Assembly (NCBI GenBank): GCA_019359115.1
Contig: JAHHHW010000100.1
Location: forward strand, 1-53,737
Reading direction: 5' to 3'
Length of the DNA: 53,737 bases
Source: Pelatocladus maniniholoensis HA4357-MV3
GTDB lineage: Bacteria > Cyanobacteriota > Cyanobacteriia > Cyanobacteriales > Nostocaceae
Part shown: positions 4,317-46,676 of the stretch, piece by piece
Numbering within the stretch: the first letter of the stretch is position 1
Layout of the letters: each line of letters begins with the position of its first letter
Translations under genes and position numbers: made by a program
Notes under the pieces: generated by a model
What the model was told of the DNA's origin: nothing
The model's input: only the letters and a program-made list of their open reading frames with translations
Databases searched by the model: none

Positions 4317-4439
4317 CAATACGCTTGGTGTTAAGCCCACAATCCTTTGTATCAGACGCGTAGCAAGATCCCACAGGGTAATTTCGCGTCTCTACAGACC
4401 AAATTTTTATACCAAAAATCCTTAACACCAAGCGTATTG
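4317..4439 (-). mobile_element. MITE-like element, CAATAC family, copy B
   Basis: Perfect 19-bp terminal inverted repeats, CAATACGCTTGGTGTTAAG at 4317-4335 and its complement at 4421-4439, bound a 123-bp element. Read on the minus strand it aligns with the left half of the copies at 38771 and 46562 (CAATAC, GGTTAAGGATTTTT, then GTAGAGACG). The flanks TATTTAGGT and GTTTTAGGT could be a decayed 9-bp target duplication. The nadA stop codon lies in the left flank. Confidence 0.75.
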
Positions 4440-16802: not shown

Positions 16803-18653
16803 TTAATATCCTCTCGGCGCTCCTTCACCACGCGGATCGGCTGCTGCTTCTAAACTTCCGTCAGACGTAACTGCGATCGCGTTAATATTTCCCCAAGGTT
16901 GAATTTGTTTAATTTTGTGTCCCCGACGCTGTAATTCTGCCAAAGTGAGGGTATCTAAACCAAAAGGTTCGACTCGTAATTCATCAGGAAGCCATTGATG
17001 ATGAATGCGGGGGACAGAAACAGCTTCACCGACATTCATGTTGTACTCTAATACATTCAGGATGACTTGCAACACTTGGGTGATAATTGTCCCCCCACCA
17101 GGCGCACCCACTGCTAGGCGCAGGCGATTATTTTCTGTGACAATGGTGGGAGTCATACTGGATAGAGGTGTTTTGCGTGCTGCGATCGCATTAGCTTCGT
17201 TACCCGGTAAACCAAAAGCATTCGGTACTCCTGGCGCAGCAGCAAAATCATCCATTTCGTTATTGAGGACAATTCCCGTCCCCTCTGCAACCACACCAGC
17301 ACCAAACCCCAAGTTAACAGTAAAAGTCAGACTGACGGCGTTGCGTTGTGCATCGACAACGTTAAGATGGCTTGTTTCTGAAGACTCGTAACGAGGTTGA
17401 TAGAATGTTTCCTGTGTGTTGCCAGTAGTAAGAAAATTGTTAGTAGAGGGGATGAGTCCTTGCTTTTGCTTGCGAAGAACAGGTTGAGGAGTAAGATTCT
17501 GTTCTAACATTTTCATAGTAGCAGGCTCAATTTCCTTTGCAGCCCTAGCCCTATTCATCATAATTTCAGATCGCCGCAGTTGGGCATAGCCAGGGCTAAT
17601 CAATTGTTGTACAGGTACTTTGACAAAATCGGGATCGCCTAAAAGTTTCGAGCGATCAGCATAAGCAATTTTCATTGCTTCCACCATCAGATGGATTGCA
17701 TCAGGATGATGCCAACCTAAAGATTTTAAATTGGTAGAACCGATAATATTTAATATTTCTAATAAATGTACACCTCCAGAAGAAGGAGGTGGCATTGAAC
17801 AAACTCGTGCTTGACGAAAATTACCACAAACAGGAGTGCGCCAGATTGGTTTGTAAGATTTCAAATCTTCCAGAGTTACCAAACCACCATTTTTTGCCAT
17901 GTCAGCAGCAATAGCACGAGCAATATTTCCAGTGTAAAAACTACGTGGATTCTGAGATATTGCTGTTAATGTTTTTGCTAAGTCACGCTGTACCAGTTTT
18001 TCTCCAGGTTGATAAAATTCCCCATTGCGAGTAAAAATTGCTCGTGCGGCTGGGTTACTAAGAATTACTTGCTTACGGTTTTCATACTCTGGTATAGAAC
18101 GCAACCTTACTTGAGGACTCAGAATAAATCCATCTTTAGCAAGAGCGATCGCAGGTTTGACAACTTCTGCCCAAGGTAACTTACCATAACGTTGATGCAC
18201 TTCGTACAGTCCTGCCACCGTTCCTGGTGTTCCTACTGCCAAGTGACCATTGATACTCAAATTTGGACGCACCTTACCCTGAGCATCCAAATACATATTT
18301 CTTGTTGCTTTCAAGGGTGCGCGTTCACGAAAATCTAAAGCTTTAATTTCTCCAGTTTTAGCATCGCGAAACAGCAAAAAGCCACCGCCGCCAATTCCTG
18401 CCGAAAACGGTTCCACCACAGAAATCGCAAAAGTCGTCGCTACAGCTGCATCAACTGCATTACCACCTTTACGTAACATTTGCAAACCTGCGTCACTCGC
18501 TAAAGGATTTGCAGACACCACCATAGCTTTTTTGGTGCGTAAAGGTAAGCTAACGGTAGCTGCTACCTGTTTGTGGTTGTAAAACAGTAATGCAGAAAAA
18601 CACAGATGAAAAATAAATACTGAAACCTGCGTGTAACGACGGAGATTAGGCAT
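16803..18653 (-). CDS. ggt: Gamma-glutamyltransferase (glutathione hydrolase)
   Basis: A periplasmic N-terminal-nucleophile hydrolase that cleaves the gamma-glutamyl bond of glutathione. It has 616 residues from ATG at 18653 (GTG at 18668 also in frame). An N-terminal signal segment (VFIFHLCFSALLFY) is followed by the large subunit with MVVSANPLASDAGLQMLRKGGNAVDAAVAT and GGGGFLL. The autoprocessing and nucleophilic Thr lies in SSETSHLNVVD. The small-subunit motif LSSMTPTIV and GAPGGGTII are present. All key blocks of an active enzyme are kept. Confidence 0.95.
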   Translation of the reverse strand: MPNLRRYTQVSVFIFHLCFSALLFYNHKQVAATVSLPLRTKKAMVVSANPLASDAGLQMLRKGGNAVDAAVATTFAISVVEPFSAGIGGGGFLLFRDAKTGEIKALDFRERAPLKATRNMYLDAQGKVRPNLSINGHLAVGTPGTVAGLYEVHQRYGKLPWAEVVKPAIALAKDGFILSPQVRLRSIPEYENRKQVILSNPAARAIFTRNGEFYQPGEKLVQRDLAKTLTAISQNPRSFYTGNIARAIAADMAKNGGLVTLEDLKSYKPIWRTPVCGNFRQARVCSMPPPSSGGVHLLEILNIIGSTNLKSLGWHHPDAIHLMVEAMKIAYADRSKLLGDPDFVKVPVQQLISPGYAQLRRSEIMMNRARAAKEIEPATMKMLEQNLTPQPVLRKQKQGLIPSTNNFLTTGNTQETFYQPRYESSETSHLNVVDAQRNAVSLTFTVNLGFGAGVVAEGTGIVLNNEMDDFAAAPGVPNAFGLPGNEANAIAARKTPLSSMTPTIVTENNRLRLAVGAPGGGTIITQVLQVILNVLEYNMNVGEAVSVPRIHHQWLPDELRVEPFGLDTLTLAELQRRGHKIKQIQPWGNINAIAVTSDGSLEAAADPRGEGAPRGY

Positions 18654-18756
18654 TGTAATTGAGTACACTCAGAGTTCTTATAGTATCATACAGCTGGTAA
18701 GCCGATGCATTCACAATGTAAGCTAATGCATTCACAATAGACATCTCCGAAACAAT

Positions 18757-19206
18757 GTAGAGACGTAGCATTACTCTGTAGACCTCTTGCAAAAGTCGAA
18801 TGAACCCCCCTCAATCCCCCCGTGAACGGCAGGGTGGTTTCATACGAAAAAAGAAAAATATGGAAGTCTGTATTTCTCGTTTTGAAGCATAGATTTTTAC
18901 CCCTCTCCAAACCTCTCCCCTTATTAAGGGGAGAGGCTTTAAAAGAAGATTTTAATTTTTCTCTGCTTGTATGAAACCACCCTGCTCAATCCCCCCGTGA
19001 ACGGGGGGAAGATTTAGTTCCCTCCCCGTTTACGCTTAGGGTTAGGGTGGGGTAAAAATATTTTTGCAAGAGGTCTTGTCAAGTCAAGTTTAAATTTATG
19101 GATAAGAAAGTTCGTAGTAAGGACTTAAGTCCTTATTTTTTAAGCACGCGCATTGCTTACTACAAACCCTTAATTCAAACTTGACAGAGTAATGCTACGT
19201 CTCTAC
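18757..19206. mobile_element. Composite of nested inverted-repeat elements (at least four layers)
   Basis: Outer layer: a perfect 23-bp inverted repeat at 18757-18779 (GTAGAGACGTAGCATTACTC...) and 19184-19206. Layer 2: AGACCTCTTGCAAAA (18780-18794) with its complement at 19062-19076. Layer 3, inside layer 2: CAGGGTGGTTTCATAC (18830-18845) with its complement at 18969-18984. Layer 3 is flanked by the 20-bp direct repeat CTCAATCCCCCCGTGAACGG at 18810-18829 and 18985-19004. Layer 4, beside layer 2: GTCAAGTTT (19083-19091) with AAACTTGAC (19177-19185). It encloses GTAGTAAG (19114-19121) with CTTACTAC (19156-19163). No protein is encoded. Confidence 0.85.
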
Positions 19207-19256: not shown

Positions 19257-20141
19257 ATGGACAAAGTATTAGAACAAACATCTTCGGTGATACTGCGTGG
19301 GGGACGACCCGACGACGCACTCAAGTGTGGCACAATTCTGTATCAAGGGTTCCGTGACATTGCGGAACAGCACGGCTTCGTACCTGACCTTCCTTCTGCG
19401 GAGTATGGGGTACAAATGCTGACCGAAATTTTAGCGAACCCGGCGGTTTATTCAGTCGTGGCTGAGACTGAGGACGGACGCGTTATCGGTAGCAACTTTT
19501 TATGGGAAGGTGACACTATCGCCGGGATTGGCCCCATTACGGTAGACCCCGCCGCGCAAAACAAGTCGGTTGGTCGCCGCTTGATGGAACATGTTTTACA
19601 AAGGACACGCGAAAAACGGTTCGCTGGGGTGCGGCTCCTTCAAGCTGCATATCACAACCGCTCGCTTTGCTTGTATGCAAAACTGGGCTTCGATGTGCGC
19701 GAGCCACTAGCGAACCTTCAAGGACAGGCGCTTGGCTTGAAGATACCTAGTCGCACCGTTCGTCCGGTGACTGAAACCGACCTGACAGCGTGTAATCAAC
19801 TCTGCGATCGCATTCACGGTCATGATCGGGCGGGCGAACTAAAGGGAGCTGTTGAGCGGGGTACAGCAACACTTGTCGAGTATGATGGGCGCGTATCGGG
19901 CTACGCCACCGAAATTGGCTTCCTGGGTCACGCTGTTGGCGAAAACAATGAAGACTTAAAGGCGTTGATCGGAGCAGCTCCAGAGTTCACGGGGTCGGGC
20001 TTTTATCTTCCGACGCGTAACGGCGATCTGTTCCGTTGGTGTTTGAACCATGGGCTGCGTGTCACCCAGACCGCAACGTTGATGAGTCTCGGACTGTATA
20101 ACGAACCGTCAGGGGCCTTTCTATCGTCCGTCCTGTATTAA
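19257..20141 (+). CDS. GNAT-family N-acetyltransferase, tandem-domain type
   Basis: An acetyltransferase of unknown substrate. It has 294 residues from ATG at 19257, with GGAAAGG (19241-19247) as ribosome site; the frame also opens at TTG 19239. The first GNAT domain (about 12-150) has motif A DPAAQNKSVGRRLMEHVL and HNRSLCLYAKLGF. The second half (about 165-294) looks like a degenerate GNAT-like domain. Base composition is visibly GC-richer than the neighbours, which suggests transfer. Its stop overlaps the convergent flv2 stop by four bases (20138-20141). Confidence 0.85.
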   Translation: MDKVLEQTSSVILRGGRPDDALKCGTILYQGFRDIAEQHGFVPDLPSAEYGVQMLTEILANPAVYSVVAETEDGRVIGSNFLWEGDTIAGIGPITVDPAAQNKSVGRRLMEHVLQRTREKRFAGVRLLQAAYHNRSLCLYAKLGFDVREPLANLQGQALGLKIPSRTVRPVTETDLTACNQLCDRIHGHDRAGELKGAVERGTATLVEYDGRVSGYATEIGFLGHAVGENNEDLKALIGAAPEFTGSGFYLPTRNGDLFRWCLNHGLRVTQTATLMSLGLYNEPSGAFLSSVLY

Positions 20142-24557: not shown

Positions 24558-24588
24558 TGTAGAGACGTAGCAATGCTACGTCTCTACA
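24558..24588. repeat. GTAGAGACG palindrome, 14-bp perfect stem
   Basis: TGTAGAGACGTAGC (24558-24571) pairs perfectly with GCTACGTCTCTACA (24575-24588) over a 3-base loop. It shares its arm sequence with the outer layer of the nested element at 18757-19206. It could fold strongly in RNA from either strand. Confidence 0.85.
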
Positions 24589-31500: not shown

Positions 31501-31581
31501 TCTAAATCGGGCAGGCTTCTGGGTTTTTTCGATACGCAAACAGGGCTATTCGTCGGGTATATTAAGCCTGCCCGATTTAGA
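31501..31581. repeat. Hairpin with 18-bp perfect stem upstream of tnpB relic
   Basis: TCTAAATCGGGCAGGCTT (31501-31518) pairs perfectly with 31564-31581 over a 45-base loop. The right arm ends just before AAGGGG and the ATG at 31590. It could be the left-end structure of the element, an inserted MITE, or a leader hairpin that affects translation. Confidence 0.75.
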
Positions 31582-46561: not shown

Positions 46562-46676
46562 CAATACTGCTCGGTTAAGGATTTGTCGTCGTAATTTTGG
46601 GCATGTAGAGACGTTGCAGTGCAACGTCTCTACAGGTTTTAAATGTCAATCGATTTGTCTTATCCGAGCAGTATTG
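46562..46676 (+). mobile_element. MITE, CAATAC family, with 10-bp target duplication
   Basis: The 115-bp element has perfect 13-bp ends CAATACTGCTCGG (46562-46574) and CCGAGCAGTATTG (46664-46676). It is flanked by CCATTACCCC on both sides (46552-46561 and 46677-46686), a clear target duplication. The centre is the palindrome GTAGAGACGTTGCAGTGCAA... at 46606-46633. It sits in a C-rich repeat between kdpC and kdpD. It is the best-preserved of four copies. Confidence 0.92.

Follow-up and report, generated by a model that had tools for sequence, protein, structure and literature searches.

The locus and its inverted repeats

The DNA analysed here, referred to as the window, is a stretch of 53,737 nucleotides from a cyanobacterium related to Fischerella. 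Within it, a 450-bp stack of inverted repeats occupies positions 18757-19206, in the gap between two genes. On one side lies a minus-strand gene whose product we take, from the look of the protein, to be gamma-glutamyltransferase-like; on the other lies a plus-strand gene that is presumably acetyltransferase-like, as judged in the same way. An earlier note on this DNA had described four layers of inverted repeats in the gap, and every pair it described was recovered in the sequence:

18757-18779 / 19184-19206: outer pair, perfect, 23 bp
18780-18794 / 19062-19076: 15-bp pair, AGACCTCTTGCAAAA
18830-18845 / 18969-18984: 16-bp pair, CAGGGTGGTTTCATAC
19083-19101 / 19167-19185: fourth pair, 84% complementary, enclosing the palindrome AAGGACTTAAGTCCTT at 19119-19134

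By a rough estimate from composition, the number of perfect pairs expected in 801 bp is 7e-9 for a 23-bp pair, 4e-4 for a 15-bp pair, and 1e-4 for a 16-bp pair; given the value for the outer pair, composition alone does not explain the layers. Read as mobile and dispersed repeats (layers A to D, on the evidence given below), the gap and its flanks are made up as follows:

16803..18668, minus strand: upstream gene, presumed gamma-glutamyltransferase-like, outside the stack
18757..18779: left arm of D, the outer palindrome, GTAGAGACGTAGCATTACTCTGT
18777..18779: left-hand TGT of the 3-bp duplication made by B
18780..18829, plus strand: left-hand 50 bp of layer B, a 122-bp MITE
18810..18829: target duplication of A, left copy, 20 bp, CTCAATCCCCCCGTGAACGG
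18830..18984, plus strand: layer A, a 155-bp MITE, ends CAGGGTGGTTTCATAC, which are the ends of ISAs1-family IS
18985..19004: target duplication of A, right copy, 20 bp
19005..19076, plus strand: right-hand 72 bp of layer B
19077..19079: right-hand TGT of the same 3-bp duplication
19083..19185: dispersed repeat C, 103 bp, whose ends are GTCAAGTTT... and which encloses the inner palindrome at 19119-19134; outer ends approximate
19184..19206: right arm of D, which shares its first two bases with the end of C
19257..20141, plus strand: downstream gene, presumed acetyltransferase-like, outside the stack, with its ATG 50 bp past the stack

Folding of the whole region as RNA, a check that the earlier note had proposed, gives a structure of -201.6 kcal/mol (z = -15.1), and none of 100 shuffled sequences is equally stable. 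Strong folding is to be expected of nested inverted repeats, which fold well whatever the reason for their presence. The formation of one long hairpin by the block would suit a single composite repeat spreading as one piece. However, a 481-bp query made from the block has no full-length match in the host genome other than itself (40 of 258 candidates scored), and the layers are found apart many times, so that a composite repeat has next to no likelihood in our estimate. Since each kind of layer recurs without the others in the same genome, the block consists of insertions stacked on one another and is not one unit. The earlier note had reasoned that sequential insertion would be the wrong reading if the block were always carried as one unit and never as single layers; in the host genome, single layers do occur apart.

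Layer B and elements that share its ends

Layer B is present in two pieces, separated by A and its duplication. Removal of A together with one copy of the 20-bp duplication restores a 122-bp B, which is identical to eight of 17 solo copies and 96.7-99.2% identical to the other nine. The first ten solo copies differ from it at no position (eight copies) or at one (two copies), an identity that is biased upwards because these ten were drawn from the best matches to the 481-bp query; the seven further copies are 96.7-98.4% identical. The ends of B occur 56 times in forward and 56 times in reverse orientation in the host genome. In 29 of 31 pairs, B is flanked left and right by the same 3 bp; three of the 31 have another interior. 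The duplicated triplet fits ANT in 19 of these 29 cases, and the other ten are ATA, TTA, TAT, TTT, ACA or TGT.

IS with the ends of B were found by way of loci that match PF13359. One of these is a 922-bp IS (L232, in genome G004), which has the exact ends of B, flanks of ACT/ACT, and the PF13359 match. A 923-bp relative (L228, in genome G035) has one mismatch per end and flanks of ATT/ATT. The IS5-family model NF033581 is matched above its cut-off by L228 and below it by the partial first frame (144 aa) of L232. The host genome itself contains two PF13359 matches, where the open frames are short (174 and 160 aa). L239, one of the two, is part of a 680-bp element whose ends are B-like and whose flanks differ from each other; the other (L231) is accompanied by one B-like end with a single mismatch. 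When the listed reading frames were judged by eye, no transposase was recognised beside 15 single A or B ends of the host genome, nor at the B-end loci of relatives. Partial matches to B, of 76-78% identity, are present in two plasmid records, and in genome G045 a B-ended repeat is cut off at the contig ends.

Together, the 3-bp duplication and the ends held in common with a transposase-encoding IS indicate that B is a MITE of an IS5-family IS. Among the copies of B, the loop of its hairpin is seen in both orientations, GTGAAC and GTTCAC (18815-18829, and L019, 385-403), as if it were inverting.

Layer A and its long target duplication

Layer A has the traits of a MITE, being short (155 bp), multicopy, and without a transposase gene; its end is found 24 times forward and 27 times reverse in the host genome. 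IS with the same ends are present as 19 copies of 1173-1176 bp in four genomes: G006, where both ends were found at 15 of the 17 places fetched, G031 (two copies), G055 (one), and G007 (one). The transposase of such an IS, in the one copy examined, is split over two frames, and both halves pass the cut-off of NF033564, the model of the ISAs1 family. Through ends that it has in common with these IS, A is accordingly classed here as a probable MITE of an ISAs1-family IS.

The flanks of A-type elements could be compared at 42 sites (23 MITE and 19 IS) for which both ends were found in the loci fetched. A duplication of 19-20 bp with at most one mismatch is present at 28 of the 42; four of the other 14 have no score at all. 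True flank pairs score at least 10 in 17 of 23 MITE and 13 of 19 IS, versus 6 of 506 (MITE) and 7 of 342 (IS) when flanks were exchanged between copies. The highest scores in this control, 20 and 19, probably arise because some A-type copies share a target sequence. Chance matching of C/G-rich flanks was considered as the origin of the A duplications and was rejected on the strength of the exchanged-flank control.

A consensus target was drawn from the 28 sites, leaving out the 14 of 42 that lack a 17-21 bp duplication at up to one mismatch. The base before the duplication is C at 24 of the 28, the first base of the duplication C at 24, its last base G at 25, and each of the next two bases G at 24. 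The target takes the form CC/CT..AG/GG, in which the slashes mark the borders of the duplicated segment.

Target duplications in the ISAs1 family are usually 8-10 bp, as ISfinder reportedly gives them. A duplication of 19-20 bp is therefore an unexpected result for an ISAs1-type element. Because the IS with the same ends makes the same long duplication, it may be read as a variant that falls within the ISAs1 family by its transposase, rather than as a typical member. IS target duplications in general are put at 2-15 bp in a passage of PMC3281130. Neither the passages of PMC3733652, PMC3542288, PMC10969869, and PMC3281130, nor those of PMC3606827, PMC5216076, PMC9366434, and PMC8763236, give a duplication length for ISAs1. 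Among the titles and abstract openings of the open-licence papers that the literature searches listed, no report was found of a 20-bp duplication in ISAs1 or of nested MITEs in cyanobacteria.

In a DNA search of the 167 contigs of the host genome (40 of 67 candidates scored), an IS carrying the ends of A was not found at full length. What the search gave was a 112-bp remnant on contig C106, so that A seems to have been orphaned, unless a copy lies in gaps of the assembly. Plasmid records have no match to A.

The older hairpin of layers C and D

When B and one TGT are removed, the perfect outer arm lengthens from 23 to 28 bp, which indicates that B broke into an older and longer hairpin, formed by palindrome D around C. 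The fourth pair of the earlier note corresponds to layer C, and is not part of a separate element placed beside the 15-bp one. Rather than lying next to C as an equal, B interrupts an arm that the outer and the fourth pairs form jointly. Thus C, although it is beside B on the map, is outside B in the nesting and older than it.

Elsewhere in the host genome, the best seven matches to C have 91-99% identity and are mostly partial; C-related matches occur in all four same-genus genomes; a partial match of 76-78% identity is present in one plasmid record. Among the copies inspected, no clear target duplication was seen for C, whose ends vary between copies. The right end of C in the stack is more symmetric than in other C copies.

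Palindrome D is also found alone. A pattern of exact 14-bp arms with 0-20 bp between them, for which overlapping matches may count twice, gives 20 matches in the host genome, and 10 of 20 genomes contain a match. One solo D palindrome, GTAGAGACGTAGCAATGCTACGTCTCTAC, lies elsewhere in the window at 24559-24587.

The same gap in related genomes

By the acetyltransferase-like gene, the three closest loci are those of Fischerella sp. PCC 9431 (G003), Fischerella muscicola (G001), and Westiellopsis prolifica (G002). The orthologous gap, between the same two genes, has no match to any part of A, B, or C in these three same-genus genomes. In a wider set of 19 cyanobacterial loci, which includes these three, no end of A, B, or C (up to two mismatches) is found within 600 bp upstream of the gene, whereas one locus has a D half.

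The matching place in F. muscicola contains a D-like palindrome without inserts, identical to D in 24 of 29 alignment columns; its local score of 18 compares with a maximum of 14 among shuffles, and none of 1000 shuffles is as good. A weaker D-like palindrome is present in W. prolifica (score 13, shuffle maximum 11). Fischerella sp. PCC 9431 has none, its score of 7 being equalled by 821 of 1000 shuffles. The empty sites that the earlier note had suggested looking for are thus present in three relatives. Along with the layers found apart and the two clean target duplications, these relatives uphold its view that unrelated MITEs were nested by sequential insertion.

A 21-bp tandem unit (GTAAGCCGATGCATTCACAAT-like) is present in two copies at 18697-18738, in the same gap as the stack. 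Arrays of this unit are longer in the same gap of all three relatives, and the unit also occurs elsewhere in these genomes.

The position of the block, which ends 50 bp before the ATG, and a fold far more stable than that of shuffled sequences would be expected of a functional RNA, or of a hairpin that regulates the downstream gene. However, the gene is retained in the three relatives, where A, B, and C are missing, and any nested inverted repeats fold well; such a role is consequently considered very improbable. No Rfam family reaches its threshold for the block. The Rfam search, the RNA fold, and the gap of the relatives gave no sign of a host function, and the stack looks like ordinary self-serving DNA.

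Layer B as a landing pad for other repeats

Among the 100 of 112 B ends of the host genome that were listed, there are 38 complete B pairs, counting exact-ended pairs only; 24 of the 100 ends have no exact partner. By their spacing of 122-123 bp, 23 pairs are uninterrupted; 15 of these 23 were otherwise read only within the ten solo copies or not at all. Three pairs (L293, L297, and L300) have another interior and were set aside, leaving 35 copies of B, 12 of which carry inserts. The inserts are A in two copies (the one in the window and that at L019), a repeat named E in nine, and a repeat named F in three, with two kinds of insert present in the copies at L019 and L301. Repeat E has the ends CTACGGTGTACAC or close variants, and repeat F has ends like CAATACTGCTCGG. 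Five more B copies, each with one exact end, have E ends near by (L087, L090, L091, L097, and L101).

Random insertion into 35 B copies would give an expected 0.03 insertions of E and 0.017 of A, assuming 50 copies of E (100 ends at up to two mismatches) and 26 copies of A, versus the nine and two observed. The significance of this excess is overstated, because a B that carries E may itself have moved and the nine cases are perhaps not independent. The inserts enter the interior of B, at about positions 29-102 of the 122 bp. B is a recurrent landing pad for other repeats. The earlier note had called the site a hotspot; this fits B as an element, and finds no support where the chromosomal site itself is concerned.

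Nesting was probably favoured by target choice, since A uses sites of the form given above and the C/G-rich interior of B offers such sites. More generally, and with somewhat less than even confidence, we propose that B-type MITEs could act as landing platforms for unrelated mobile families whose transposases choose C/G-rich, hairpin-like targets. The stagger with which the ISAs1-type element cuts would be unusually wide, 19-20 bp, at the symmetric site CC/CT(N15-16)AG/GG, and nested stacks would then be predictable from target choice rather than accidental.

Other nests and inverted pairs were seen in the course of this work. At L019 (354-1175) there is a deeper stack: B contains A, which itself contains an insert with a single E-type end, and the same B further contains an E-type repeat that encloses a tandem array. 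At L292 and L301, the repeats found inside B are of F type and have a D-type centre. In the window, a two-layer nest at 46562-46676 consists of an F repeat, ends CAATACTGCTCGGTTAAG, which encloses a D-type palindrome (46605-46633) and is bordered left and right by CCATTACCCC. At 4317-4439, the arms of a perfect 19-bp inverted pair, CAATACGCTTGGTGTTAAG, are separated by 85 bp; this pair may be related to F. Another inverted pair, perfect over 18 bp (TCTAAATCGGGCAGGCTT), is present at 31501-31581, with 45 bp between the arms.

A proposed history of the stack

It is very probable, in our judgement, that the block consists of small non-autonomous mobile repeats inserted one into another: C in D, then B with duplication of 3 bp, then A with duplication of 20 bp. 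The dispersed palindrome D, about 29 bp long, would have been present first, upstream of the acetyltransferase-like gene. The 103-bp C would then have come to lie within the middle of D, creating a long hairpin; no duplication was seen for this step. Next, the 122-bp B, with its IS5-family ends, would have entered the left arm of the C/D hairpin, duplicating 3 bp, and the 155-bp A, with its ISAs1-family ends, would have entered the interior of B, duplicating 20 bp. Transposases of IS with the same ends presumably moved A and B in trans, and A presumably entered at this site rather than travelling inside B.

The last of these points has a competitor. At the second locus, L019, A occupies the same position within B, and that B keeps both ends and its 3-bp duplication (ATT). 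A may therefore have reached its present place inside B: it would have entered B elsewhere, and the two, 297 bp in all, would have inserted together into the C/D hairpin. The duplication around B in the stack would have the same appearance under either history. However, the two loci differ in the length of the A duplication (20 bp in the window, 19 bp at L019), in the orientation of the B loop, which is opposite, and in the further inserts that L019 contains. Moreover, no third case of A in B was found among the 38 listed B pairs, as judged by spacing for the uninterrupted ones and by reading for ten other interrupted ones. Travel of A within B is thus regarded as possible, though unlikely, and entry of A into a resident B is preferred. 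The insertion order given in the earlier note, outer pair, then B, then A, is retained as the order of age of the sequences; that the insertions followed one another at this very site is unproven, since L019 has A in B as well.

Where nested repeats keep intact scars, the relative order of the bursts of different IS families can be read from one place. Should they be borne out, the long ISAs1-type duplication and the recurrent targeting of one MITE make the target choice of the transposases directly testable.

Comparison with known systems

The IS5 family is resembled in that an IS with the ends of B has a PF13359 match, its relative L228 matches NF033581, and the 3-bp duplications are mostly ANT. 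We take the partner IS of B to belong to the ISL2-like group of this family. Target duplications in that group are reportedly ANT, whereas those of B depart from this form in 10 of 29 cases. For A, likeness to ISAs1-family IS lies in the transposase, both halves of which pass NF033564 in the A-ended IS. The difference lies in the duplication, which at 19-20 bp is outside the usual 8-10 bp.

Small dispersed repeats of cyanobacteria were reportedly treated by Elhai et al. in 2008. The REP-like palindromes of cyanobacteria include the GTAG repeats, which are tagged at one end, as described in a passage of PMC3733652. Like these, D is short and abundant and starts with GTAG; unlike them, it is symmetric, in a comparison based on their description, the published consensus being given as a figure. 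Type I bacterial MITEs are moved in trans by IS with the same ends, according to a passage of PMC3542288. No full-length partner IS was found for A or B in their own genome, in which respect they differ from this type; they resemble it in being too short to encode a transposase and in sharing their ends with transposase-encoding IS of other genomes.
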